Origin: a virus
Virus record (IMG/VR): IMGVR_UViG_3300032050_007363
Coordinates: 1-21,162 of that record
DNA length: 21,162 bases
Reading direction: 5' to 3' (one strand)
This document shows, piece by piece, positions 1 to 14,486 of this stretch. The notes beneath the pieces were generated by a model. It was not told the origin of the DNA, did not search any database, and was given only the letters and a program-made list of their open reading frames with translations. Within the stretch, counting starts at the first letter, position 1. Every line of letters starts with the position of its first letter. Position numbers and translations under genes: made by a program.

Positions 1-309
1 TCTATCTTTATTCTCAGGATCTGCGTAATTGAATAAGTTACTGTCTACAACCAGTGTGCGTTTTTTATAAATTCGTTGATTCTCAATCACACGTTTTCTA
101 ACTAATAGATGCGGAGAATTATCACTACCCTCGTGAACCCACCCTTGGATAAATGCCACATCGGCCTGTACGATATTATTTCCTGTTTGTAAAAATCCGT
201 CGTCGCCGGCGGCTCTTACGCCTTGTATAAATCTTGAAAGGATTTCTCTCTTGTGTTGATTTTTAACACCGGGAGGAACACCAGAGATATATCCAACTAC
301 TGTAGTCAT
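1..309 (-). CDS. Partial unrecognised protein of the glycan cassette (N-terminal 103 residues)
   Basis: An open frame runs from an ATG at 309 to the window edge without a stop, giving 103 codons. It begins MTTVVGYISGVPPG and contains the segments FIQGVRAAGD, VAFIQGWVHE and TLVVDSNLFNY. The start forms an ATGA overlap with the stop of the pyruvyltransferase-like gene upstream, so it is translationally coupled and last in the visible part of that operon. The rest of the gene lies outside the window. The alternation of short hydrophobic strands with charged loops fits a Rossmann-like enzyme of glycan metabolism, but I recognise no catalytic motif. Its role is inferred only from its neighbours; that it is a real gene is well supported by coupling and open frame. 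Confidence 0.7.
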   Translation of the reverse strand, partial: MTTVVGYISGVPPGVKNQHKREILSRFIQGVRAAGDDGFLQTGNNIVQADVAFIQGWVHEGSDNSPHLLVRKRVIENQRIYKKRTLVVDSNLFNYADPENKDR

Positions 310-1220
310 AGCTGTTGTACTATTTTCCAAAACTCTTCAGTTGCTGATACACATTCATCTAAAGCAGACGGATGAGCTTCTGCTTTTTCGATAGCCTCAG
401 AAATTTTTTCATTCTTTAATAGAACATAAGGTTTATGTTTTAAATGTTGAAATTTAGAACTCCACGTATCAGTTAAAATTACTTTTTTCCCCAACAGTGT
501 TCCCCAATAAACTCCATGGTAACTGTTAGTTACTATAATATTTGAAGAACCTAATATTTCAATTGTCTGTTCAATGTTACTGCCTGAATTTATAAATCTA
601 GGCATTGCTATATCGCCAAACTCTCTTGTTAATTGTTTTTTATGTTCAAACCAAATAATTTCGTTTTTAATTTCATATTTTTTTCTCAGAGCAGGATGCA
701 TACAACTAGCACAAGGTGCCCAAGAATAGTTCTGTCCGTAATCTCTAATACCAACAAGATCAAAATTGTTTAGATATTCTGGATACTCTATTGTTGATGC
801 TTTTTTTGTAGGATCGCCATTATGTCCTGCTCCCCACACTATTTTTTTAGATGTATTTGGATCTAAACTATTAATTGTTTCGGACAAGAGATTTGAGAAT
901 TTTTCAGTAAATGTTTTATGAACGTTAGCATTTCTAATATCATTTAAAAACCATGATTTTTTTCTAAATTCTGATAAATGAGCATAATCTCCACCACCAA
1001 TGATTGATAAAAATCTATCAAAATTATCATTAGAAATTAAACCACCACCACCCACTATAATTTTTGTATCAGGCGAAATTTTTACATCAGCTGGCCATTC
1101 GGATATATCTATACTATGATATTGATCTTTTTTTAAAAAATATTGAAGGGGATCTGCGGCCATATCGCCAACATTATTTTTGTCTTTTCTATGTATTACT
1201 AGGTATTTTATATTACTCAT
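306..1220 (-). CDS. Polysaccharide pyruvyl transferase family protein
   Basis: A 304-residue protein matching the polysaccharide pyruvyl transferase family (WcaK/AmsJ-like), whose members add pyruvyl groups to, or otherwise modify, surface sugars. Visible signs are NVGDM near residue 16, the glycine-rich strand end IIVGGGG near 54, IVWGAGHN near 127, VGIRDYG in the middle, and the C-terminal lobe segment IIVTNSYHGVYWGTLLGKK, in which the SxHG part is typical of the family. Length is close to that usual for the family. The start overlaps the end of the upstream glycosyltransferase-like gene by 8 nt and the stop overlaps the next start as ATGA, so it belongs to the minus-strand operon beginning at 3857. 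Donor and acceptor cannot be read from sequence; some family members are not true pyruvyltransferases. Confidence 0.8.
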   Translation of the reverse strand: MSNIKYLVIHRKDKNNVGDMAADPLQYFLKKDQYHSIDISEWPADVKISPDTKIIVGGGGLISNDNFDRFLSIIGGGDYAHLSEFRKKSWFLNDIRNANVHKTFTEKFSNLLSETINSLDPNTSKKIVWGAGHNGDPTKKASTIEYPEYLNNFDLVGIRDYGQNYSWAPCASCMHPALRKKYEIKNEIIWFEHKKQLTREFGDIAMPRFINSGSNIEQTIEILGSSNIIVTNSYHGVYWGTLLGKKVILTDTWSSKFQHLKHKPYVLLKNEKISEAIEKAEAHPSALDECVSATEEFWKIVQQL

Positions 1221-2004
1221 TTAATATTTTCCAAACTGAACCGTTTTTCATTTCCGTGAAACTAAATTGTCCATAGGCCAAATGGCATCCCCACGCAAAT
1301 AATTTATCGCTGTCTGGGTAGTAGGGGTTATCTATTTGACTGAGGTCCTGAGACCCAACTGGACTAGCAGCATTGGCCGGTGCTAGTGTAAATGCTGGTA
1401 TACCGTGAAATATACTTTCAACGGCTGCTACGCTATTGTATGTAACTAGAGCAAAAACATCATTGTCTAATGCTTGTTGTAGTGTATCTGTTGTTATTCT
1501 ATCAGTACGCAACTTAGCACGTTCTCTAACAACCACAGGGCGATCAGTGTATTGTTGTATAGTTTCTACAGTTTCTTTTACCCACTGGTCTTTAATTATG
1601 CCGTAAAATTTACAAGGTTTTTCATCCGGTGCTGCCACCAATATCTTTCGACCGTCTTTTTTCCAAGGTTGAAATTTTTTATTAAATTTTTCAAATCTAT
1701 CTGCTGGTCTCGAAACTATCTCTCCGTGCTGTAAGTTATTTTTAACAATGCGGTGCCATAATTTCCAACCATTAGGATTAGCACGAGTTTTTTCATTTCC
1801 AAAATAGCCTGTGTCAACATAATAAAAGTCTCGCTGATCTCTCCAACAATTTTTCATTATTTTATCTTTGAGGATGCCACGCAGTACAATAGGTTCATTG
1901 CTACTTTTATAATCAAAATTGTCAGTGTTTACTAGAGTTCCGTTAGAACCTCGACAAAATTGATTGATATATTCGTCGTGGCCGTTTTTACTTAAGAATA
2001 TCAT
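1213..2004 (-). CDS. Capsule/Kdo-type glycosyltransferase-like protein
   Basis: A 263-residue protein resembling the C-terminal lobe of capsule polysaccharide (Kdo-type, GT-B fold) transferases. The best sign is the segment ALVTYNSVAAVESIFHGIPAF near residues 195-215, the usual nucleotide-sugar-contacting Ser/Glu/Gly pattern in this group, followed by a short C-terminal tail. An earlier strand, KILVAAPDEKP, could open the second Rossmann lobe. The protein is short for a full two-domain enzyme and may have a reduced acceptor lobe. The ATG at 2004 lies inside the 3' end of the upstream glycosyltransferase gene (17-nt overlap), so translation is probably coupled. Specificity is unknown. The class assignment rests on one motif region and operon context. 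Confidence 0.6.
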   Translation of the reverse strand: MIFLSKNGHDEYINQFCRGSNGTLVNTDNFDYKSSNEPIVLRGILKDKIMKNCWRDQRDFYYVDTGYFGNEKTRANPNGWKLWHRIVKNNLQHGEIVSRPADRFEKFNKKFQPWKKDGRKILVAAPDEKPCKFYGIIKDQWVKETVETIQQYTDRPVVVRERAKLRTDRITTDTLQQALDNDVFALVTYNSVAAVESIFHGIPAFTLAPANAASPVGSQDLSQIDNPYYPDSDKLFAWGCHLAYGQFSFTEMKNGSVWKILNE

Positions 2005-2683
2005 GTTGTTGGCAATGCTCTGTTAATACACGCTCTCTATGCCATTCATTGGCAAAACTTCCCTGTGTGGCAAATTCATGAAAGCAAGGTGTGCCTAGAG
2101 TGTAATGTACCAGTTTAGCGTTGGGATTATAATCATATTCAACATCTAACCAGTTCCATTCCTTAGGCAGTTCACCTATACGATCTTCCTCTAGCCACGA
2201 GAAGCGGTGGAGCTCGGCACCTGTAGATTGTTGGATGAACTCGGGAGTAAGTCTCCGGTTAGGAAAGCTATTACAATTCCACAGAATAACACTAGACCAA
2301 TTTTTTCGAGGATAGTCTTCATTTTTTGCTCCTAAATATTTTATAGGCATTTTTGTTTTATAGTCATGCTTAACTACTTGTACATCTTTGCCGACTTCAC
2401 GTAAGTCCCAAAGCTCTGCGATATCGCCACGCACAATCATGTCGCCGTCTATGAATATAGCATGACCAGTGTAGCTCATAAGATAGGGAACAAGAAATCT
2501 AGTATAGATAAAATGATTACTACCGTCAGTATGTGTTTCGGTATAATCTTTAAAAAGACTAAGTGCTACTGGAATAATGCTAACAGGGCGGCTGGAATTT
2601 CTTATTATGCTGTTTACACAGGTATGGTACGCTATGGCTTCTCTAGGATCGTATCCAATAAAAATAGGAATGATATCTTTCAT
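1988..2683 (-). CDS. GT8-like glycosyltransferase
   Basis: A 231-residue GT-A type glycosyltransferase resembling family 8 and related cytosolic sugar transferases. It opens with IPIFIGYDPREAIAYHTCVNSI, a common start of this group. The metal-binding DxD motif is FIDGDMIV (D79-G80-D81), preceded by TRFLVPYLM, where the arginine usually contacts the nucleotide. SSVILWN around residue 130 is the acceptor-side strand, and a histidine-containing HYTLGTPCFH segment lies near the C-terminus. It likely transfers a sugar from a nucleotide sugar to a phage- or host-directed glycan. The stop overlaps the next gene, and the start overlaps the methyltransferase stop by 4 nt. A Shine-Dalgarno-like AAAGG lies upstream of the start. 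Donor unknown. Confidence 0.8.
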   Translation of the reverse strand: MKDIIPIFIGYDPREAIAYHTCVNSIIRNSSRPVSIIPVALSLFKDYTETHTDGSNHFIYTRFLVPYLMSYTGHAIFIDGDMIVRGDIAELWDLREVGKDVQVVKHDYKTKMPIKYLGAKNEDYPRKNWSSVILWNCNSFPNRRLTPEFIQQSTGAELHRFSWLEEDRIGELPKEWNWLDVEYDYNPNAKLVHYTLGTPCFHEFATQGSFANEWHRERVLTEHCQQHDILK

Positions 2684-3117
2684 ACACTAACCTTTGATAA
2701 AATATATCTATTATACCTAAAATTTTCTACAGAATTAAAATGAGCAGTGAGTAATTTTGATATACTATCTTCAGTAAATGCTCGTTTCCATTCTAATTTT
2801 TTTTTAACAGGAAGTGTTAATATTAAAAACATATTGGCAAAGTTTTTTATTTTATTAAGCACAATATCTGGATTATCTACATATTCAAGAACACCAAGTA
2901 ATAATCCCACATCGTAGTTTTTAATTTTTATGTCGTCAATATCTAAATTTAAATTCATCATTGCGTTTGGAATTTTATCTATTCCGAGATATTCTTTAGG
3001 TTTATAAAAATTTAAAATTTCTTGATTGCCACAGCCAAAGTCTACAACAGTACAGTCTATTGGTATGTGTGTCACAACAAAATTAAATCGTTCGCTCCAA
3101 GGATTCTTTGAATTCAT
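2680..3117 (-). CDS. Small SAM-dependent methyltransferase
   Basis: A 145-residue class I methyltransferase-like protein. Motif I is VVDFGCGNQEIL near residues 25-36, followed by EYLGID (acidic residue at the end of strand 2, binding the SAM ribose). The strand-4 segment YDVGLLLGVLEYVDNPDIVL matches the usual 'D-x-G-x-x-L-G-V-L-E-H' region of small-molecule methyltransferases. It is shorter than most class I enzymes (about 200-250 residues), so the C-terminal substrate-capping part is reduced. It sits between the nucleotidyltransferase-cupin fusion and the GT8-like gene, with 4-nt overlaps on both sides, which suggests it methylates a sugar intermediate or finished glycan. This is one of three methyltransferases in the cassette; the substrate is not readable. 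Confidence 0.75.
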   Translation of the reverse strand: MNSKNPWSERFNFVVTHIPIDCTVVDFGCGNQEILNFYKPKEYLGIDKIPNAMMNLNLDIDDIKIKNYDVGLLLGVLEYVDNPDIVLNKIKNFANMFLILTLPVKKKLEWKRAFTEDSISKLLTAHFNSVENFRYNRYILSKVSV

Positions 3118-3857
3118 TTTCGTTCTATGTCTTCTTCAATACATTGTTTGCCATATTGTATTTCTATAACCTTTAACGGGTTATCTGTAGGATTGTGTAA
3201 TTGGTGCCATTCATTAGGATTAATAATTTCAGTTTTATAAGGCTTAATTGTGCTTCCACCAAATTCCCAATTGTTGCCGGCAACTCCTTCGGCAATAAAC
3301 CATAATTCAGATCTATGTTTGTGGCGTTGCATACTTAAAGTTTTACCTGGATCTACAGTAAGTTCTTTAACTTTTACATTGTCACCTATAGTATGAAGTA
3401 CTCTATAATAACCCCAAGGTCTTTCAGTCTTTGGTGCTTTCCATTCTTGTAAAATCCATCTACTAGAGTTTTGCTTGTCAAACCCGCCTACACCAAACGT
3501 AAATGTAAGATTGTCATCTTTAACGTCCATTTCTGGAATGTTAGCGTGTGTTCGATCGCCGCCGTTGGCAAATATTAAACTGGCGTCAGGATAATGTGCT
3601 CGAACCTGTTGTATAAAATGTCTAGCAGAACCATCAGCATCATCAAATGTGTAAACTTCATCTACCATTGATAGATTGTTTATTATACATAGGCGTTCGT
3701 TCCAAGGCATAAAGGCACGCCCTTTTTTACGTTCTAGCCATTCATCGGAATTTAATCCAACGATTAACATGTCGCCAAGTGTTTTGGCTTGTTTGAAATA
3801 GGCAATATGCCCAGAGTGGATGGGGTCAAAGCCGCCTGTAACAAGTACTATTTTCAT
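3114..3857 (-). CDS. Fusion of a cytidylyltransferase-like domain and a mannose-6-P isomerase type cupin
   Basis: A 247-residue two-domain protein. Residues 1-140 form a nucleotidyltransferase fold: VLVTGGFDPIHSGHIAYF carries the HxGH motif (H14-H17), as in the adenylyl/cytidylyltransferase half of HldE and TagD-like enzymes. Residues 145-247 match the C-terminal cupin of mannose-1-phosphate guanylyltransferase/isomerase proteins: ERPWGYYRVL, then RHKHRSELWF with metal ligands near H179 and H181, then NEWHQLHNP and a closing IEIQYGKQCIEEDI. A longer frame to 3944 exists, but I chose the ATG at 3857: conserved sequence starts there, the 29 extra residues are unlike the family, and an AATAAATA box lies between. 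It is the first gene of the minus-strand operon and probably activates a sugar phosphate and isomerises or binds a sugar. Confidence 0.82.
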   Translation of the reverse strand: MKIVLVTGGFDPIHSGHIAYFKQAKTLGDMLIVGLNSDEWLERKKGRAFMPWNERLCIINNLSMVDEVYTFDDADGSARHFIQQVRAHYPDASLIFANGGDRTHANIPEMDVKDDNLTFTFGVGGFDKQNSSRWILQEWKAPKTERPWGYYRVLHTIGDNVKVKELTVDPGKTLSMQRHKHRSELWFIAEGVAGNNWEFGGSTIKPYKTEIINPNEWHQLHNPTDNPLKVIEIQYGKQCIEEDIERK

Positions 3858-3862
3858 GTTTC

Positions 3863-3870
3863 TATTTATT
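3863..3870 (-). promoter_or_regulatory. Late-promoter-like box AATAAATA before the fusion gene
   Basis: On the minus strand AATAAATA is followed by GAAAC and then the ATG at 3857, a gap of only 5 nt. It resembles the T4 late consensus TATAAATA. No Shine-Dalgarno sequence fits between box and start. It would drive the whole 3857-to-left operon. Confidence 0.5.
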
Positions 3871-3884
3871 TGAATAATATGCCC

Positions 3885-3892
3885 ACTAAATA
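3885..3892 (+). promoter_or_regulatory. Late-promoter-like box ACTAAATA before the cupin gene
   Basis: ACTAAATA on the plus strand lies 25 nt before the cupin ATG at 3918, with an AGAGGA ribosome site in between, a normal late-promoter layout. It faces away from the AATAAATA box at 3863-3870, so this 60-nt gap looks like a divergent late promoter pair. Confidence 0.5.
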
Positions 3893-3917
3893 AACTGTGG
3901 TTTAAAGAGGAAACAAA

Positions 3918-4262
3918 ATGATTGCTGGAAAAGTATGGGGGCAAACAGAGCTCCTTGAAGCCAACGGTGTGCTAGAGTTCCACCGCATTGAAGCCCGGAA
4001 AGGCGGCGTCTGTTCGAAGCACAAACATCAATTTAAATGGAACGGGTTTTTTGTTGAATCTGGAAAACTTATTATTCGTGTTTGGAAAAACAACTACGAG
4101 TTGATTGATGAAACTATTCTAACAGCTGGACAATATACCAAGGTTGCCCCCGGAGAATATCATCAATTTGAAGCACTAGAAGATACAGTTGCTTTTGAAT
4201 TGTACTGGGCAGAGTTTGATCATGAAGATATAGAAAGAGATTCAGTAGGATTTAAAAAATGA
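3918..4262 (+). CDS. Single-domain cupin protein
   Basis: A 114-residue one-domain cupin. Cupin motif 1 is seen as SKHKHQFKWNGFFVESGKL (H35, H37, then the G-x-L turn), and motif 2 as VAPGEYHQFEAL (G79, H82). Together these give the usual metal site. Such stand-alone cupins in sugar clusters act as isomerases or epimerases or bind sugar phosphates. The start has a clear AGAGGA Shine-Dalgarno sequence at 3907-3912. The stop overlaps the next gene's ATG by 4 nt, coupling it to the UDP-sugar dehydrogenase. Its C-terminus (EDIERDSVGF) recalls the C-terminus of the divergently transcribed cupin fusion (EEDIERK), which suggests related cupins. Exact reaction unknown. Confidence 0.75.
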   Translation: MIAGKVWGQTELLEANGVLEFHRIEARKGGVCSKHKHQFKWNGFFVESGKLIIRVWKNNYELIDETILTAGQYTKVAPGEYHQFEALEDTVAFELYWAEFDHEDIERDSVGFKK

Positions 4263-5032
4263 AAATTGGAATTTTTGGATTAGGGTACGTAGGATCGGCA
4301 GTAGCACATACACACAGATATCAGAATATTATCGCAAGAGATCCTAAATTAGGAGATCAATCAGCAACAATCAGCGATATTAAAACTTGTGATGCTGTAT
4401 ATATTTGTGTGCCAACACCGATGATGGAGGATGGACATTGCGATGATTCGTATGTTAAATCTGTTCTTAGGGAGTTAGCAGGATATGAAGGTGTTATAAT
4501 TTGTAAAAGCACAGTTCCGCCAGGCGTGTATTTGAGATTACAAGATCAATATCCTAACCTAGTTCATGCTCCTGAATTCCTCACAGCTGCAAACGCAACA
4601 GAGGATTATGAAACATCTATCTGGGTATTAATAGGCGGAAATTCTAAATTTTGTGAAAAAGCAAAACATATAATTTCGTCAAGCACTGTTCAAGCTAAAC
4701 ACTATCACTTCACTGACATAGCATCTGCTAGTCTTTTCAAATATATGGCAAATTCATTTATGGCCACTAAGGTGACATTTATGAATGATCTATTTCACTT
4801 AGCAAAAGCTGTAGGAGTAGAGTGGAATGAACTAAAAGAAATAGCTAAAAATGATCCTAGATTAGGAACCAGCCATTGGGATGTTCCAGGTCCTGATGGA
4901 CAGTTTGGGTATGGCGGTGCTTGTTTTCCTAAAGACGTTGCTGCTATTGTTGAACATGGTCTTGATATAGGTACACCGCAAAAATTATTAGAATCTGTTA
5001 AAGAAATTAACAAATTACATAGAAACTTATAA
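4259..5032 (+). CDS. Short UDP-glucose/GDP-mannose dehydrogenase-like protein
   Basis: A 257-residue member of the UDP-glucose/GDP-mannose 6-dehydrogenase family, which oxidises nucleotide sugars to uronic acids with NAD. The N-terminal Rossmann motif GLGYVG is at residues 7-12, CVPTPM near 50, KSTVPPG near 83, APEF near 104 and KYMANSF near 161. The catalytic segment GYGGACFPKD near 218-226 keeps the cysteine (C222) and the following Lys-Asp. Normal enzymes are about 390-450 residues, and this one stops about 30 residues after the catalytic cysteine, so the whole C-terminal nucleotide-binding domain is absent. It follows the cupin with a 4-nt overlap and converges on a methyltransferase gene with overlapping stops. 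It may use a smaller substrate or need a partner. Confidence 0.85.
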   Translation: MKIGIFGLGYVGSAVAHTHRYQNIIARDPKLGDQSATISDIKTCDAVYICVPTPMMEDGHCDDSYVKSVLRELAGYEGVIICKSTVPPGVYLRLQDQYPNLVHAPEFLTAANATEDYETSIWVLIGGNSKFCEKAKHIISSSTVQAKHYHFTDIASASLFKYMANSFMATKVTFMNDLFHLAKAVGVEWNELKEIAKNDPRLGTSHWDVPGPDGQFGYGGACFPKDVAAIVEHGLDIGTPQKLLESVKEINKLHRNL

Positions 5033-5542
5033 TTTTTGTCCTACAAAAACGTGATCGTTCCATTTAGTTGAATCTTTTTCTGTAGATTCTCTATCTACCC
5101 AATTAGCAATAATTTTTAATTCGCATTCTTCTGCGATTGCCTTAAACGCATCGTCCATAAATCTCCAACAATCTCTTACGTCATGTCTTGGACCGGCACT
5201 AGGAGCAATAATTATAATAAATCCATTAAATTTTACTACTCGTTTTATTTCAGTTACAAGACGAAATGGATTTTTTACATGCTCTAATGTTTGCCCGCTT
5301 ACAATAATATCATAATAATTGTCTTCTGAAGGTATGGTATATTCAGATGGCATAATATGAGTTACATCTTCGCCTGCTACAATATCTGCTATATGATATT
5401 CATTAGAGTGATCTATTAACAAGGATTTATAAGATCTATCTCCTTTTAATCCTCTTCCGCCAATGTCTAACACAGATAAATTTTTTTTAAGTTCTATTAA
5501 AGATAGAGCTTTTTTCATATTTTGAATAGATGAACTATGCAT
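5027..5542 (-). CDS. SAM-dependent methyltransferase
   Basis: A 171-residue class I methyltransferase. Motif I is SVLDIGGRG near residues 23-31, with an Asp-ending strand 2 near YHIADIVAGEDV. Motif IV/post-I is YDIIVSGQTLEHVKNPFRLVTEIKRV, the pattern of the Methyltransf_11 group, followed by GFIIIIAPS. The Gly-Gly-Arg-Gly motif replaces the more usual G-x-G-x-G, as in several sugar-cluster methyltransferases. It overlaps the upstream methyltransferase by 8 nt and is the last gene of the minus-strand run starting at 7024. Its TAA stop overlaps the convergent dehydrogenase stop within TTATAA, and there is no terminator hairpin between them. Substrate unknown. Confidence 0.78.
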   Translation of the reverse strand: MHSSSIQNMKKALSLIELKKNLSVLDIGGRGLKGDRSYKSLLIDHSNEYHIADIVAGEDVTHIMPSEYTIPSEDNYYDIIVSGQTLEHVKNPFRLVTEIKRVVKFNGFIIIIAPSAGPRHDVRDCWRFMDDAFKAIAEECELKIIANWVDRESTEKDSTKWNDHVFVGQKL

Positions 5543-6131
5543 ATTTTTTTATAAAATCTGTATAACTAATCAACGGCAAGTTAAACACATTATCCTTATA
5601 AAACTTCCAAGAATTTTCTATGTTAAGTTTCTTAGGCTCCTGTGGCTGTTTGAATACTACTCCGCAGCCTTCGTCTATTAACACCAATTGAAAAGTTACT
5701 TCTGTTCTAGCTGATAAATTAAAGGCTAGTTTCCAAACATCACCTAACCATGTTTTTGGAAGAGGTGTTGGGATAGGAACTACCGATTCTTCTTCTTTTC
5801 TAGGTAGCATATCGTGTATTATAATAACCCCGTTAGGGTTTAAAAATTTTAAAGAATTATCAACGTCTTTTAACACCTGTTCATAATAATGTAATCCGTC
5901 AACAAAAATTACATCAAACAATTCAGTATTCTGAGAAAAAAATTCATCGCTGGTCATTCTACGGTTGCCGCCTCTAAAAGGATCAACACCTATTTTATAA
6001 TCGCAAATCACGTTATTAAAAATTTTATCTCTATCGCAACCAATTTCTAAATATTTGTTGGCATTAGTTTTTTTAATCATTAGATTGATTAGCTCTAATC
6101 TTGATTCTTGTGTAAATGGAATATTAATCAT
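5535..6131 (-). CDS. SAM-dependent methyltransferase, Methyltransf_24 type
   Basis: A 198-residue methyltransferase resembling the Methyltransf_24 group common in O-antigen and capsule clusters. Signs are KYLEIGCDRDKIF near residue 27 (motif I), YKIGVDP (strand 2 end), FDVIFVDGLHYYEQVLKDVDNSLKFL (motif with D-G-x-H) and GVIIIHDMLPR (strand 5 followed by HD, which often binds a metal). The start overlaps the stop of the epimerase gene as ATGA. It probably methylates a sugar or an amino-sugar in the same pathway; the substrate cannot be read. Confidence 0.8.
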   Translation of the reverse strand: MINIPFTQESRLELINLMIKKTNANKYLEIGCDRDKIFNNVICDYKIGVDPFRGGNRRMTSDEFFSQNTELFDVIFVDGLHYYEQVLKDVDNSLKFLNPNGVIIIHDMLPRKEEESVVPIPTPLPKTWLGDVWKLAFNLSARTEVTFQLVLIDEGCGVVFKQPQEPKKLNIENSWKFYKDNVFNLPLISYTDFIKKYA

Positions 6132-7024
6132 AGATTTTCTTTAACATAATCCTCTAATGTTTTAGAAGGTTGCCAGTCAAACACAGTTTTAAGTTTTGTA
6201 TTGTCTGCTAACGTAATATATGCTTCGCCCATTCGAGGAGCAATCATTTTTGTATTGTTAGATATCATTTCCGCTAATTCTAAAACAGAATGATTAGTAC
6301 CAGTACCAACATTAAAAACTTCTCCGTAATGATTATGATCCTCTTTGCTCATGGCTAAGATATTTGCTTCAACAACATCATCTACGTGAGTAAAATCTCT
6401 ACGTTGTGTGCCGTCGGGAACAATAGTTAATGCTTCATTGGCTTTAAACTGTCTAAGAAATAACCCAACTACAGGAGCATATGGACCTCTTAGGGGTTCT
6501 CTTTCGCCGTAGACATTGAAGTATCTAAAAATTACTGTTTTAAGTCCGAATAATCGAGTGTACATAGTACAGAGCTTTTCACCAGAAACCTTAGATACTG
6601 AATATGGATTAAGGCAGTCGTCTGGCATGTCTTCTCGCAATGGAGGTTCATTTTTTAAACCGTAGCCCGATGATGTAGAACTATACATTACTTTATTAAC
6701 ACCTGCTTCTCTAGCACATTGTAGCACAGTGCCTGTTCCTAGTGTATTTGTTTTAATAGCACCTAGGGGATTTAAAATAGTAGGTTGAATCCTTGATTCG
6801 GCCGCACAGTGAAATACATAATCAACACCATCATATAACTTTCTAGTGTTTTCGTAATCTACAATATCAAGTTTATGATAAGTTGCTTTATCATTATAAT
6901 AGAAGTTGTCATGTACTTGCGATGTTTCGTTATCTATTACAACAACATCATGTCCTAAATTTATTAACTTATCTACAATATGAGAACCAATAAACCCTGC
7001 TCCGCCCGTCACTAATGATTTCAT
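6128..7024 (-). CDS. NAD-dependent sugar epimerase/dehydratase (extended SDR)
   Basis: A 298-residue extended short-chain dehydrogenase/reductase of the UDP-glucose 4-epimerase / dTDP-glucose dehydratase group. GGAGFIGSH at residues 7-15 binds NAD. The catalytic triad is visible as SSTSSGYG (near 115-122) and Y141-x-x-x-K145 in YSVSK. RYFNVYG and RDFTHVDDVV are the usual substrate-binding and subfamily segments. The length is slightly short but complete. It is the first gene of the minus-strand run 7024-5027. An AAAGGAT ribosome site lies upstream, and 26 nt separate the start from a GATAAATA box. It likely makes an epimerised nucleotide sugar for the glycosyltransferases of the cassette. Confidence 0.9.
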   Translation of the reverse strand: MKSLVTGGAGFIGSHIVDKLINLGHDVVVIDNETSQVHDNFYYNDKATYHKLDIVDYENTRKLYDGVDYVFHCAAESRIQPTILNPLGAIKTNTLGTGTVLQCAREAGVNKVMYSSTSSGYGLKNEPPLREDMPDDCLNPYSVSKVSGEKLCTMYTRLFGLKTVIFRYFNVYGEREPLRGPYAPVVGLFLRQFKANEALTIVPDGTQRRDFTHVDDVVEANILAMSKEDHNHYGEVFNVGTGTNHSVLELAEMISNNTKMIAPRMGEAYITLADNTKLKTVFDWQPSKTLEDYVKENL

Positions 7025-9544: not shown

Positions 9545-10507
9545 TTAGCTTTGGCGTGAACGGATCATCGCTAGGATGTCTTGTGCTCTACTGTTATTAG
9601 CACCTGCGGCTGCTGCCGGTGCTGCCTCTGCTCTAGGAGTCGGAGCGGCTGCTGCCGGCTCGTCATCTTCGCCTGCTGCTACATCGTCTGTGCGACGTGC
9701 TACAGGATCACCAGTGGCTTGACTCATACCTGCTGGTTTGAAGTATTGACCCCAACGATCCATATCATAGGCCTCTCCATCAACTGATGCTTCAAACATT
9801 TCTTTGATGATTTTGAGTTCTACTTCTGTGGGTTTCTTAGGTAGGAAGTCTTTTAAGTTGAAAAGACCTTGTGCTTCAACTGCCACACGCTCTTCATCGC
9901 TAAGAGCACGTTCAGTACGGCTCCACTTAGATGTGCTGTAGTCAGCATAACCACCTTTGCTAGTTTTAGCAATACGGAAATCAACACCATGGCTGAAATC
10001 AGTTGGTAGTTCGTTAAGCTCAGGATCCATCAAAGCACTCTTAATGATCTGATAGATTTGAGGTCCGATAATAAATCTACGGATTGGATTTTCTGGAGTT
10101 GTATCTTCTGCGATAGGATTCTTAACAACGAAGCCTTGGAAAATGTATGAACGCTTTTTCCAATACTTACGACCCATGTCTTCAAGACTCTTGTCTTTGA
10201 ACCAGCCACGTACTTCTGAAAGGATCGGACATGTTTCATTCCACATTTCCATACAAGGTACTTGTACTTGTACAGCTTTACTGCCTGTGTCACCTTTAAT
10301 ACCGGCAAACGGCAATTTAATCATTGCTCGCTCGATCCAGAAAAAAGTGTTATTAGAGTCGCCGTCGGGTAAGAAACGAATAGTAGCTTCTTTACCTTCT
10401 GCCATGTTCCAGTGTGGATAGATTGCGTTGTCGCCGCCGCTTGTTTTGCCGCCTTGGCCTGCTTGTGCTTCTTGAAGTTTCGCACGGATTTCTGCTAATG
10501 TTGCCAT
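9545..10507 (-). CDS. 32: gp32 single-stranded DNA binding protein
   Basis: A 320-residue T4 gp32-type protein (T4: 301) that coats single-stranded DNA in replication and recombination. HWNMAEGKEATIRFLPDGD near residues 32-50 and FFWIERAMIKLPFAGI near 55-70 are the conserved start of the OB-fold core. The zinc-site region shows VPCMEMWNETCPI with only C85 and C93 nearby, fewer ligands than the T4 set of one His and three Cys. The C-terminus has an acidic patch (DDVAAGEDDEP), then an Ala/Pro-rich linker and a short helical end, RAQDILAMIRSRQ, fitting the acidic protein-interaction tail. The ribosome site AAAGGAGG is very strong, and the leader can form hairpins. First gene of the recombination operon. 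Confidence 0.93.
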   Translation of the reverse strand: MATLAEIRAKLQEAQAGQGGKTSGGDNAIYPHWNMAEGKEATIRFLPDGDSNNTFFWIERAMIKLPFAGIKGDTGSKAVQVQVPCMEMWNETCPILSEVRGWFKDKSLEDMGRKYWKKRSYIFQGFVVKNPIAEDTTPENPIRRFIIGPQIYQIIKSALMDPELNELPTDFSHGVDFRIAKTSKGGYADYSTSKWSRTERALSDEERVAVEAQGLFNLKDFLPKKPTEVELKIIKEMFEASVDGEAYDMDRWGQYFKPAGMSQATGDPVARRTDDVAAGEDDEPAAAAPTPRAEAAPAAAAGANNSRAQDILAMIRSRQS

Positions 10508-10581
10508 TTTAAATTGCCTCCTTTAATATGCCTTAAAATGTATGCCTTACGCATATATGTATTATGCGTGATTTATTTAGT
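10508..10581 (-). promoter_or_regulatory. gp32 leader with promoter-like box, hairpin and GCATA repeats
   Basis: On the minus strand an ACTAAATA box (10574-10581) starts a leader of about 65 nt. A perfect 7-bp hairpin ACGCATA-ATACATA-TATGCGT spans 10549-10569. Two further GGCATA copies follow before the AAAGGAGG ribosome site; their GCATA can pair with the TATGC arm instead. T4 gp32 represses its own translation by binding a structured leader, so this may be the equivalent control site. Confidence 0.5.
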
Positions 10582-10611
10582 AAAAGCAAGATGTTTACTA
10601 TATTTTTTTGC

Positions 10612-10641
10612 CAAAAGAAAAGGTTCTAACAAGAACCCTTT
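10612..10641 (-). terminator. Intrinsic terminator after the secreted-protein gene
   Basis: On the minus strand AAAGGGTTCT-TGTT-AGAACCTTT forms a 9-bp stem with a bulged base, followed by TTTCTTTT. It starts 12 nt after the stop of the 64-residue gene and closes that one-gene unit before gp32. Confidence 0.65.
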
Positions 10642-10652
10642 CTTAAAACCAA

Positions 10653-10847
10653 TCACTTCTTGGCTGCGTCTTTCTTAGCCTCTTCCTTTGCTTTAGCAGG
10701 AGCTGCTGGTTTTGCTTCTTCCTTCTTGGCAGGAGCTGCGGCCGCTGGCTTAGCGTCTGCTGAAGCAGGCTTAGCAGGAGCAGTTGGTGTTTGAGCAAAA
10801 GCAGAAACTGCAAAAAGTGACGAAAATAAAGTTACTAATGATTTCAT
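10653..10847 (-). CDS. Small secreted Ala/Pro/Lys-rich protein (moron-like insert)
   Basis: A 64-residue protein with a clear signal peptide: MKSLVTLFSSLFAVSAFA, one lysine, a hydrophobic core and an AFA site for signal peptidase I. The mature part of about 46 residues is only Ala, Pro, Lys, Glu, Thr, Ser and Asp in repeats such as AKPA and KEEAK, so it is extended or helical, highly charged and probably periplasmic. The ribosome site TGGAGA lies 7 nt before ATG. The gene is locally GC-richer than its surroundings, mainly from Ala and Pro codons. Terminators stand on both sides, and tandem repeats precede it, so it has its own expression unit. Similar proteins are common in proteobacteria, which suggests host origin. 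Function unknown; envelope protection or superinfection exclusion are only guesses. Confidence 0.75.
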   Translation of the reverse strand: MKSLVTLFSSLFAVSAFAQTPTAPAKPASADAKPAAAAPAKKEEAKPAAPAKAKEEAKKDAAKK

Positions 10848-10871
10848 ATGAAAATCTCCATTTTTTATGTC

Positions 10872-10886
10872 GCTGAGATATTCAGC
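10872..10886 (-). promoter_or_regulatory. Inverted repeat in the leader of the secreted-protein gene
   Basis: GCTGA-GATAT-TCAGC is a perfect 5-bp dyad with a 5-nt centre, 25 nt before the start at 10847. It could be an RNA hairpin or an operator half-site pair. Upstream lie AT-rich TATATA stretches that could hold a -10 element; no convincing -35 is seen. Confidence 0.35.
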
Positions 10887-10928
10887 AACTGTATATATAA
10901 CGCTTTAAAATATATAACGGTAAATGCG

Positions 10929-10963
10929 AAATGGTAAGACTGATAGCAAATGGTAAAACTGAT
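10929..10963. repeat. Tandem 16-bp direct repeat upstream of the secreted-protein gene
   Basis: AAATGGTAAGACTGAT (10929-10944) and AAATGGTAAAACTGAT (10948-10963) differ at one base and repeat with a 19-bp period. A third, shorter GGTAAATG copy sits at 10919. They lie about 85-115 bp before the gene and directly beside the terminator of the previous gene, a position that fits an upstream activator or repressor site. Confidence 0.6.
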
Positions 10964-10964
10964 C

Positions 10965-10988
10965 AAAAGAAAGGGCACCGAAGTGCCC
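10965..10988 (-). terminator. Intrinsic terminator after the 625-residue gene
   Basis: On the minus strand GGGCAC-TTCG-GTGCCC forms a 6-bp stem with a UUCG tetraloop followed by TTTCTTTT, 20 nt after the stop at 11009. It ends the packaging-gene transcription unit. Confidence 0.85.
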
Positions 10989-11008
10989 AATCTCAATCTA
11001 AAGTATAA

Positions 11009-12886
11009 TTATAGTCCAGATAATTCTTTAATTCTTGCTAGTTCATTAACTTGAGGTACTTGTGTGTTTTGATTAGGTGCCATACGCTCTACAAACTGTC
11101 GAGCTACTTGTTCTGCCTTTGGACCATATTTTTTGCCTGCCATTATTATCACAGCCTCTGGACCTTTTGGAAAAGTTTCAGACATGCTGTCATAACAACT
11201 GTACATAAATTCAGCTAGTTCTTGTATGTTCAAAGATTCTTCTTGACCAGATCTCTTACGGAAATCTCGAGCATGTCTGTCGTCATGCTTTGCTGGATCA
11301 GGTAAACGATATTTGTCAGTGCCTTTGCCTCTCATACTTGGTGGTAAATCGTAATCGTCTGCTTTGTCGTATTCTGGGTCATTAGGATTGGCAGCTTCGT
11401 ATTCATTGCCAAAATCTCCATAGTCTTCGTCAGATCCATGGCCTGCTGATGCTAGGGCATAACTATCATCAGTTTCGCCGCCTTCATCATCGTATTCCTG
11501 TGCTGGCATATCCATATCGCCAAAATCTAATTCATCTACAACGTCAGGAGCATTGTTTTCTAACCACTGATACACCAACGGACGCACACAAGTGTCTGCG
11601 TCTTCTTGGGCAGCATCCTTGATTTCACGTGCTAATTCCGGATCATCGATTATGCCTTTAAGGCTGCTGATAGCATTCTGTCCATCTACACCTGCTGGGA
11701 AATGTTCACCCACCAATGACTGTAGTTTCTCAACAGCCGCTGCCTTTTCTTCTTCGTCTTGACTAGTAATAGCATTATCTTCGCCTAGGTTCATGGCCCA
11801 ATCTTCAAATTTTGAAAATGGATCATTAAATTCTTCTACGCTGTCGAGGTCGAGTTCTACTTCTTCGTTAGTTGATTGTGTCATCGCGACTATGTCGTCA
11901 TAGTGTATATCTTCTTTGGTCTGCATTAGGCTATAAATGATAGGGAATGCGGCCTTGATATCTTCTTTGAAATTCTTTACTGTAAACTTATTTGTTAGAT
12001 CTTCGATGAACTCTTCTGGAACCTCTGTTACTTGTTCTGCCTGGAACTGTGCCTTGAATTGCTCGTAATGTGTTCTTTTAGCTAGTTTCTTAATTGTTTC
12101 TCTAAGACCGTCTAGTGTTTCATGAGCACGACCAACAATCTCATTAGTTTCGGAGTTCATAAGATCATTACGTACTACATAATTTCCAAAATTCTTTAGG
12201 TGTGCTATTTTTTCGCTGATACCGATAATGTGTTTACCGATATCATCGTAAGGCAATCCGCCTTCTTGTACGTGTCTCTGCATAGCACGAGCACCTGCCA
12301 AATGGATGAACGGATATTTAAATCGCTCACCTTGGCCGTTTTCGATGAACATAGCATTGATGTGTCTAGTTCTAGCACCGGGGCTGGTTTCATCTACTTG
12401 TTGATCATGCTTGATGATCAAACGTGTGTTTTCTAATTTTTGGTAGCTGGTTTTAGCAGTACCGTACATTCCTTCTTTCATAACTCCCTCTCCGACAGGT
12501 GTATTATTTGCATATTGACTTAAGAAACTAAAGTCTCTTTGATCTAAATTATCTTTGGTAATATCGCGTGTGTCAAAACTCATTAATCGACGTTTGGCAA
12601 ACTCTCTAAGACCTCTTAGAAAATCGTACCAACCATCTTTTTGTACAGCATCCATATTTTCAGTAATGCCCGTACTATAGTAGACTTTCATATTCCCAGG
12701 CTCGGCTAAACTGATACTTACATGCCCTACAGGGTTTTCTCCCTCCATGTAATCAAAGTCAAAGAATACCGCATCTTCTGGGTTGATGGTAATTTCGCCT
12801 AATTCGGAACCTAATTTTAGGCCAGAAAAACGGCTTCTAATCTTATAAAAAAGGTCAGTGCTTACGCTTTTGATATTATCTTCCAT
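11009..12886 (-). CDS. Large acidic protein downstream of terminase, function unknown
   Basis: A 625-residue protein with no catalytic motif I recognise. The N-terminal third (to about residue 300) looks folded: it has alternating strands such as DAVFFDFDYMEGENPVGHVSI and a helix DFLRGLREFAKRR. A low-complexity acidic stretch, about residues 430-545, is rich in Asp, Glu, Gly and Tyr, followed by basic RHARDFRKR. The end holds a helical module (ELAEFMYSCYDSM, then AVIIMAGKKYGPKAEQVARQF) and closes with LARIKELSGL, a short ending I associate with proteins of aquatic T4-like phages. It follows the terminase by 13 nt with a GATAAATA box in between and ends in a strong terminator. It is probably a late structural or head-assembly protein; that is inferred from position only. 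Confidence 0.8.
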   Translation of the reverse strand: MEDNIKSVSTDLFYKIRSRFSGLKLGSELGEITINPEDAVFFDFDYMEGENPVGHVSISLAEPGNMKVYYSTGITENMDAVQKDGWYDFLRGLREFAKRRLMSFDTRDITKDNLDQRDFSFLSQYANNTPVGEGVMKEGMYGTAKTSYQKLENTRLIIKHDQQVDETSPGARTRHINAMFIENGQGERFKYPFIHLAGARAMQRHVQEGGLPYDDIGKHIIGISEKIAHLKNFGNYVVRNDLMNSETNEIVGRAHETLDGLRETIKKLAKRTHYEQFKAQFQAEQVTEVPEEFIEDLTNKFTVKNFKEDIKAAFPIIYSLMQTKEDIHYDDIVAMTQSTNEEVELDLDSVEEFNDPFSKFEDWAMNLGEDNAITSQDEEEKAAAVEKLQSLVGEHFPAGVDGQNAISSLKGIIDDPELAREIKDAAQEDADTCVRPLVYQWLENNAPDVVDELDFGDMDMPAQEYDDEGGETDDSYALASAGHGSDEDYGDFGNEYEAANPNDPEYDKADDYDLPPSMRGKGTDKYRLPDPAKHDDRHARDFRKRSGQEESLNIQELAEFMYSCYDSMSETFPKGPEAVIIMAGKKYGPKAEQVARQFVERMAPNQNTQVPQVNELARIKELSGL

Positions 12887-12899: not shown

Positions 12900-14486
12900 T
12901 TAATATATAGAACTTACATAAATGGGCATAGGCATCTGATCTTCAGATAACCTTTCCGTCATTTTTTCATAGATATGCGGATCCCAATCGGCTAAAATAC
13001 CAGCCATCCGTATAATTAGCAGAGTAGACGATACTAGGTCGTCATGTTCGCCTGTTTTAGCACCAAATCCTACTCCGTGTGCTACAAATGTTTTTAACTC
13101 AGAAATCAGCGGTTTGCTGTTTATCTTCATCTTATAGGTTTCTAGCATATTTTTAAGTTGGCTGCAAGCCGTTACTTTAGACCTATGTGTAGTATTAAAT
13201 CCTTTTCGGAATTTACGTACATGACCTTTTCGTATAGGTTCGCTTAAGAATAGTCCCGGAAAGTTTTCTTCGCCTATATCGTTAATCGTTATCAACGCTG
13301 CTTCGCCCAATGTGTTATTTTCAACAGAATAATATATTTGTGGCTGACCACCTAACTCCATAGCACGTTCAGCAATATATTTTAATATCTCTCTCATATG
13401 CTTTACCTGCGATTGGATAGGTGTTAGATTGTGATGCCACTCTGCTACTTGTTCCATCGAAGGCATTTCGTAAACTTGTATAGCACCGTAGTCGCCGCCG
13501 GTGCCTAGACTAGGATCAAGTGCTACTAGATACGTAGCCTGTGGATTAATTTCTTTATACCAACGTGTTTGCCCCATAGTCATTACAGGATCGACACCTT
13601 TGAGTTCTGCTAATTTTACTGCGTTGATTAGGGTTTCATCAAAAATCAAGAATTCACAATCAAACTCTCTGCGGAAACGCTCGTCGCCAATTTTAGCACG
13701 TTCTATTTTTGCCCACTCTTCATCGCGATCCGGGTGTTCTGCCCAATGAGCAAAATAACTGTAAAAACCGTTAGCTCCTAATTTAGCTTCGTTTCCAAAT
13801 TCGTCAAACTTCTTGTTAGCCTCGGTCCATATCAAAGCAAACTGATCTTCGTCTGAGTTTGGAGTTGATGTAATAATACACTTACCACCTGTTGACAATG
13901 TTGGTGATAACGCAGTCCAAAACTCTTTGGCTTTCTCTGGTGGTTGTACAAACGCAAACTCGTCACAGTAAATCAAGGATAGCGACTTACCACGACCTGT
14001 GTTTTCAGTAGTTGTGGTTGCTTGGATACGAGCACCATTATCGTATTCAATAGTATTCCTGTTATAACTGTAAACGCCAGCACGGATAAAATCAGGTAAA
14101 TTTTCATAGCCATATCGATAACGATTCATAATGTCCTGAGCACCCTCATACTTGTGAGCAGCGATCAAAACCTGTGCTTCAGGTACAAACATTGTGTACC
14201 ATAATAGATAACCAGTAGCACAGGTAGTCTTACCCATCTGACGGGGTAACATAGCTATACATTGCTTGTTTTCGTGATAGGCTTGTATCAATCTTTCTTG
14301 ATATTCATACGGCTCAAACGGAATGCTTCCACGAACAGGATGTTGGATCTTTAAAAAATTTCTACAGAAATACAATGGCCCTGTTATAGGATCCATACAT
14401 GCTTCTAGATGCTTTACTTCTTCTAAAGTATACTTGATCTGAGCATGTGCTTTCTTGATCAGATTACCGTCGAGTGATTTTGCCAT
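12900..14486 (-). CDS. 17: Terminase large subunit, gp17
   Basis: A 528-residue DNA-packaging motor and headful nuclease (T4 gp17: 610). In the ATPase domain Walker A is LPRQMGKTT (80-88), Walker B with the catalytic Glu is LIYCDEFAFV (171-180, D175-E176), and the coupling motif is IITSTPN (204-210). The RNase H-like nuclease domain shows its acidic residues in VALDPSLGTGGDYGAI (D323), YYSVENN (E388) and EHDDLVSS (D481/D482). It is shorter than T4 mainly at the two ends. The start follows a UUCG terminator closely, with an ATTAAATA box 5 nt before the ATG and no visible ribosome site. Identification is secure. Confidence 0.96.
   Translation of the reverse strand: MAKSLDGNLIKKAHAQIKYTLEEVKHLEACMDPITGPLYFCRNFLKIQHPVRGSIPFEPYEYQERLIQAYHENKQCIAMLPRQMGKTTCATGYLLWYTMFVPEAQVLIAAHKYEGAQDIMNRYRYGYENLPDFIRAGVYSYNRNTIEYDNGARIQATTTTENTGRGKSLSLIYCDEFAFVQPPEKAKEFWTALSPTLSTGGKCIITSTPNSDEDQFALIWTEANKKFDEFGNEAKLGANGFYSYFAHWAEHPDRDEEWAKIERAKIGDERFRREFDCEFLIFDETLINAVKLAELKGVDPVMTMGQTRWYKEINPQATYLVALDPSLGTGGDYGAIQVYEMPSMEQVAEWHHNLTPIQSQVKHMREILKYIAERAMELGGQPQIYYSVENNTLGEAALITINDIGEENFPGLFLSEPIRKGHVRKFRKGFNTTHRSKVTACSQLKNMLETYKMKINSKPLISELKTFVAHGVGFGAKTGEHDDLVSSTLLIIRMAGILADWDPHIYEKMTERLSEDQMPMPIYVSSIY

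Follow-up and report, generated by a model that had tools for sequence, protein, structure and literature searches.

The window analysed here, a 21,162-base virus record from a freshwater T4-like jumbo phage, carries between gp32 and its packaging-side genes a small self-contained unit encoding a predicted exported protein. The unit is read here as a mobile gene cassette for independent expression, with an Asr-like role in the bacterial envelope as its proposed function, a reading to which a probability of roughly 0.4 is given as a whole. Its two halves differ in strength: the anatomy, comprising cassette layout, mobility, selection and constancy of charge as read from sequence, is highly probable, and the function is tentative. 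Phage proteins that are small and exported easily escape notice, and this family is absent from every family library searched (Pfam and PHROG).

The gene (10653-10847, minus strand; ATG start, TGA stop) has the neighbours that the original prediction had named. On one side lies a gp32-like ssDNA-binding protein (SSB; 9545-10507, minus strand; PHROG 1192, E 9e-62), with UvsX next after it, and on the other a virion structural protein (11009-12886, minus strand; PHROG 13484, E 4e-18) and a T4-type large terminase (TerL; 12900-14486; Pfam Terminase_6N, 1.5e-18; PHROG 36964, 1e-122). The terminase is at most 54% identical to those of named phages, PA5oct being the closest, and the TerL-structural-gp32 order recurs in PA5oct, Phosso and Atu_ph07, where no gene is annotated in the gap. 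Elsewhere in the window (306-7024), glycosyltransferase-, cytidylyltransferase-, methyltransferase- and sugar-epimerase-like ORFs were recognized by eye, and this block is probably a phage-borne surface-sugar module.

Flanking terminators had been claimed for the unit, and both fold on the gene's strand. Terminator 1 (10965-10988, minus strand; MFE -14.1, z -4.4) lies at the 3' end of the structural gene and marks the upstream boundary; its fold, from 10988 to 10973, is made up of GGGCACTTCGGTGCCC and TTTCTTTT, and a similar hairpin with a TTTCTTTTG tail is present in relatives, empty sites included. Terminator 2 (10612-10641, minus strand; MFE -16.1, z -4.2) marks the downstream boundary with the hairpin AAGAAAGGGTTCTTGTTAGAACCTTTTCTTTT, located within 10605-10645. 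A CTTTTCTTTTGG-type tail is common to both terminators and to those of empty sites, and full-site and empty-site terminators also share a TTTTCTTTTGG-type tail. The gp32 leader that follows (10508-10600, minus strand) is the same in full and empty sites and contains TTGACC-N17-CATAAT in relatives. A conserved CGCATAATA..TATGCG inverted repeat was seen in this leader, in the window and in relatives, where it overlaps the TTGACC-N17-CATAAT promoter-like site.

The 64-residue product, MKSLVTLFSSLFAVSAFA-QTPTAPAKPASADAKPAAAAPAKKEEAKPAAPAKAKEEAKKDAAKK, is predicted to bear a Sec-type signal peptide (residues 1-18, MKSLVTLFSSLFAVSAFA) ahead of a mature chain of 46 aa (residues 19-64) that consists almost entirely of A, P, K, E, D, S and T and has a net charge of +5. 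The n-, h- and c-regions expected for Sec export can be recognized, with an AxA cleavage site and no lipobox; the window protein has K2, a hydrophobic stretch and an AFA/Q site, and M1, K2, F17, A18 and P21 are conserved across 41 relatives, which bears out the signal peptide of the original prediction. Cys is absent throughout the family. The window protein matched no Pfam family at E ≤ 1, the Asr family included, and no PHROG below E 0.1. Protein BLAST against INPHARED and PLSDB returned no match, a result that is uninformative given the low-complexity filter, and the blank in named phages probably reflects such filters.

Values of pN/pS of 0.28 over the signal peptide (codons 1-18) and 0.25 overall indicate that the protein is kept by purifying selection, but which property is being retained? 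In 94 distinct proteins, with chains of 25-69 residues, the mature net charge never falls outside +4 to +6 (sd 0.69; 0.72 in 34 non-redundant proteins). Three charge nulls gave mean sds of 4.3, 1.7 and 1.9, and none was as low as observed; these nulls take the proteins as independent and shared descent lowers variance, so the case for charge constancy is strong but not final. Lysines and acids increase together (r 0.93), and longer chains have a slightly higher net charge (overall r 0.77). Because net charge is nearly constant at very different lengths, these data suggest that charge, not fold, is the selected trait, and the family offers a case in which selection on an unfolded protein appears to act on its net charge.

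Upstream of the gene is a leader with a promoter-like block. A -10-like GCGTTATATATA box (10892-10903, minus strand) matches exactly once in the window, and an alignment of 72 leaders places an upstream box, ATTTACC (10921-10927, minus strand), 17 nt before the CGTTA box. The CGTTA box precedes the gene in these 72 leaders, mostly as TGTMAAC-N17-CGTTATATA; the upstream box is TGTMAAC in most relatives (0.7-1.9 bits at positions -24..-18), and the ATTTACC of the window is a weak variant of it. The block occurs in about one copy per genome, accompanies the gene to other loci and is all but unique within each large contig, the GCGTTATATATA box being found once per locus, beside the small gene, with 0-1 further copies per contig of 116-364 kb. 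Further GCGTTATATA copies in relatives adjoin no family gene and were dismissed as chance. The small gene's block, a dedicated promoter-like element in a large phage genome, is unlike the TAAATA that precedes TerL (60/62) and the structural gene (15/15), which resembles the T4 late promoter. Tandem repeats upstream of the gene had also been claimed. A repeat is present at 10893-10924, but it is weak (period 17, score 41) and was rejected as a functional element; because only its gene-proximal copy, CGTTATATATA, is conserved in relatives, this copy is better read as a promoter-like element.

Which polymerase partner would recognize such a block? The general ECF sigma promoter pattern has AAC at -35 and CGT at -10 (PMC4153023). 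Most relatives have TGTMAAC-N17-CGTTA, from which we infer that the small gene's block may be an ECF promoter, but the -35-like box of the window is only ATTTACC. No Sigma70_r2 domain (PF04542) was found in nine large contigs, and an ECF-type sigma factor of the host possibly activates the gene. As some leaders have CGTTAAATA, CGTTATATA could also be read by a late sigma of T4 type (gp55) that has diverged beyond the reach of PF04542.

Directly behind the promoter-like box lies a hairpin, GTTGCTGA-ATATC-TCAGCGAC (10869-10889, minus strand; leader z -3.2), which corresponds to the dyad noticed earlier. Stems vary among relatives with pairing retained: 56 distinct leaders have 44 distinct stems, with a mean z of 3.5 relative to dinucleotide shuffles. 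The gene also has a ribosome site of its own, as predicted, in AATGGAGATTTTCAT-ATG, with a Shine-Dalgarno-like GGAG at approximately 10855-10858 (minus strand), and GGAG or AAGGAA is retained in the leaders of relatives. Rfam searches over 10400-11200 gave sub-threshold matches only, with no family above its gathering score.

Comparison of the same gap in related phages, which had been put forward as a check, used relatives with the same gene order from three IMG/VR scans. The gene is present or absent as a block: 42 of the 99 distinct structural-gene/gp32 gaps hold a homologue, and many close relatives, with terminase identities of up to 92%, have a clean empty gap of 144-199 bp. Below 67% terminase identity the gene is never at this site, bar truncated contigs whose TerL could not be scored. 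An empty site has one terminator and the gp32 leader; in a full site the unit lies between terminators 1 and 2, and this same leader comes after them. Recombination between the terminator tails, which are alike, would probably be the route of gain and loss. Mapped onto a tree built from 62 gp32 proteins (37 with the gene, 20 without and 5 with other cargo), presence calls for a minimum of 18 changes, of which well-supported branches force at least 10, and is no more clustered than shuffled labels; identical gp32 proteins are found with the gene in L090 and without it in L028 and L134. Recombination of gp32 itself may account for part of this pattern. The small gene was not found elsewhere in the empty-site contig G003 (364 kb) or fragments G004 and G007, nor elsewhere in G006, whose site has other cargo. 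Near-identical phages with and without the cassette make the unit a clean natural experiment.

The ORF is exchanged as well. Between the window's twin L003 and L108, DNA identity is 97.5% in the leader, 92.5% downstream, 90% at the end of the structural gene and 94.5% at the start of gp32, and only about 60% over the signal peptide and tail, a pattern best read as an ORF swapped inside a conserved frame. No family member was found in Limnohabitans phage DC31. The structural-gene/gp32 gap is a cargo site, often for exported proteins: other cargo occupies it in L117, L173, L145, L017, L144 and L007, with signal-like N-termini on proteins of 65 aa (L007), 102 aa (L017) and 118-132 aa (L117, L173 and L145), and a 204-aa protein in L144.

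How might the cassette act? Transcription would start just behind the CGTTATATA box, so that the hairpin would form the 5' end of the mRNA, probably shielding it from decay. The peptide would leave by the Sec route and, having no Cys and no second hydrophobic stretch, would stay soluble in the periplasm. The least certain step is that this unfolded, weakly cationic polyampholyte may coat or buffer envelope components in the manner of the host acid-shock protein Asr, a protection that would keep the infected cell intact. Asr of E. coli is a disordered periplasmic chaperone (PMC10746267), and the predicted peptide would resemble it as an exported, unfolded, charged protein of the periplasm. In contrast to Asr, the window protein has no Pfam match and its regulation differs, and the likeness is drawn here apart from any link to the acid response. 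A role in the bacterial envelope is what we infer from these features, and it is plausible that the envelope or rival phages are affected.

The original prediction had pointed to a host origin, and recent capture of the gene from a bacterial host along with a stress promoter would explain the ECF-like promoter and a signal peptide whose style we take to be betaproteobacterial; one of the carrier phages encodes a Burkholderiales-type porin. The distribution of the family argues otherwise. A 44-nt degenerate signature occurs in at least 120 stretches of viral contigs and in none of the genomes of 84,980 prokaryote species, a search that covers close relatives of one signature; among 591 peptide-pattern stretches in prokaryote genomes none was confirmed as a relative, whereas in viral contigs this procedure, run with the window protein, confirmed 21. 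The GC content of the gene region (0.33-0.47, against 0.34-0.57 in its surroundings) is ordinary and gives no sign of foreign composition. Host origin is thus not supported, though there may be a diverged host ancestor, and recent capture is improbable. Within viruses the family extends to the more distant jumbo phages L187 and L188, where it sits at another place beside a winged-helix-like gene, and to other T4-like groups, beside another gp32 in L194, L210 and L219 and near a PD-(D/E)XK nuclease gene in L208 and L223. The porin gene mentioned above (L244:3046-4275, minus strand; Porin_4, E 1e-35; closest solved structure Omp32) lies about 1 kb from a small-gene copy in a 357-kb phage contig and is a hint at the host group. 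Ferritin-like genes (Dps-like, rubrerythrin) adjoin the small gene at L211:4908-5342 and L290:584-1018. The lineage of a published moraphage study (PMC12619734) was considered and set aside, being a different jumbo lineage, mostly on Bacteroidota.

A different function has a precedent in T4 itself, whose Spackle protein (gp61.3) is exported and inhibits the gp5 lysozyme (PMC7650644). The window protein is likewise small, exported by means of a predicted signal peptide and encoded by a T4-like phage, and patchy presence with allele exchange fits phage-phage competition, so that superinfection exclusion or control of periplasmic phage lysozyme, with later phages blocked at entry or in their tail lysozyme, deserves consideration. 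Spackle, however, has 97 aa, is folded and has a conserved interface, and the window chain has nearly no hydrophobic or aromatic residues from which one could form; the two have no family match in common, and the absence of any Pfam or PHROG match for the window protein also speaks against this role, which we regard as unlikely. That the functional element is the leader RNA, with the ORF a mere passenger, would suit the good conservation of the hairpin and promoter-like block, but is very improbable when set against an ORF with pN/pS of 0.25-0.28, a conserved signal peptide and near-constant net charge, and a region that yields no Rfam family. Simple composition and the lack of a known domain might even suggest a functionless low-complexity accident or annotation artefact; as about 100 distinct alleles share one ORF design and leader, selection is purifying and empty sites are clean, this is barely credible.

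As a mobile cassette for independent expression, the unit is an arrangement of a known kind. Phage morons, as defined in PMC6469090, are extra genes that are transcribed independently, present in some relatives and acquired as a unit, and the moron-like layout of the original prediction is upheld by the unit's own leader and terminators, its block presence and absence, its many gains and losses, its exchanged ORF and its occurrence at other loci; the own promoter and terminator of a moron are recognizable here at the sequence level only. The gene is not at the site in all relatives, and its signal peptide is conserved. Classic morons are described from temperate phages and act from the prophage, whereas the carriers here are probably lytic T4-like jumbo phages; unlike morons, the cassette is common to phages and not traceable to a host, neither foreign composition nor a donor having been found. 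PeSL cassettes of T4-like phages (Arbiol 2010; Comeau 2014, via PMC4503421) may offer a second parallel, with promoter and stem-loop or terminator elements between genes that mediate modular shuffling, as outlined in PMC4503421. Judged by that outline, the present promoter-like block differs in not being a sigma-70 early promoter, in being nearly unique per genome and in being tied to one protein family. What is new is the family, the charge constraint, the dedicated promoter-like block and a candidate frameshift.

This last feature belongs to relatives of the window. A conserved module of 58-75 aa, here termed module B, follows the small gene's stop in the +1 frame (60 of 60 distinct relatives; for example L041:3263-3436 and L026:884-1054, both plus strand) and ends like KFRLWLARQLALAKYKE. 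Across the first 40 cases ten different stop-to-motif distances occurred, every one of them 1 mod 3, and pN/pS of the module is 0.30 in the +1 frame versus 1.60 and 0.92 in the two other frames. Module B would be explained by a +1 shift that takes place at the stop or ahead of it, or else by internal initiation at a non-canonical start, and the candidate frameshift has strong comparative support. Internal initiation may apply in general, but 9 of the 60 alleles have no ATG, GTG or TTG in the module B frame before the module. In 59 of 60 module-B alleles AAG directly precedes the stop; this codon is usual there in alleles without module B too and so is not by itself evidence of a shift site. 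The window allele has no module B, its +1 frame giving only SDWF. Joining of two modules by a +1 shift beside a stop codon, the candidate event in about 60 relatives, is known from bacterial RF2, a Listeria phage tail-shaft gene (PMC5009743) and Euplotes AAA_UAA (PMC10235951); the junction here is AAG_UAA, and the window allele is without the module. The fuller statement, of a phage-only family of exported polyampholytes common to freshwater T4-like jumbo phages and selected for net charge over sequence, with a dedicated once-per-genome ECF-type promoter and, in many alleles, a +1 frameshift into module B no later than the AAG_UAA junction, is doubtful when taken as a whole. AlphaFold gives one confident helix only for module B, and its own in-frame, signal-like N-terminus in L117 and L173 suggests that module B is exported.
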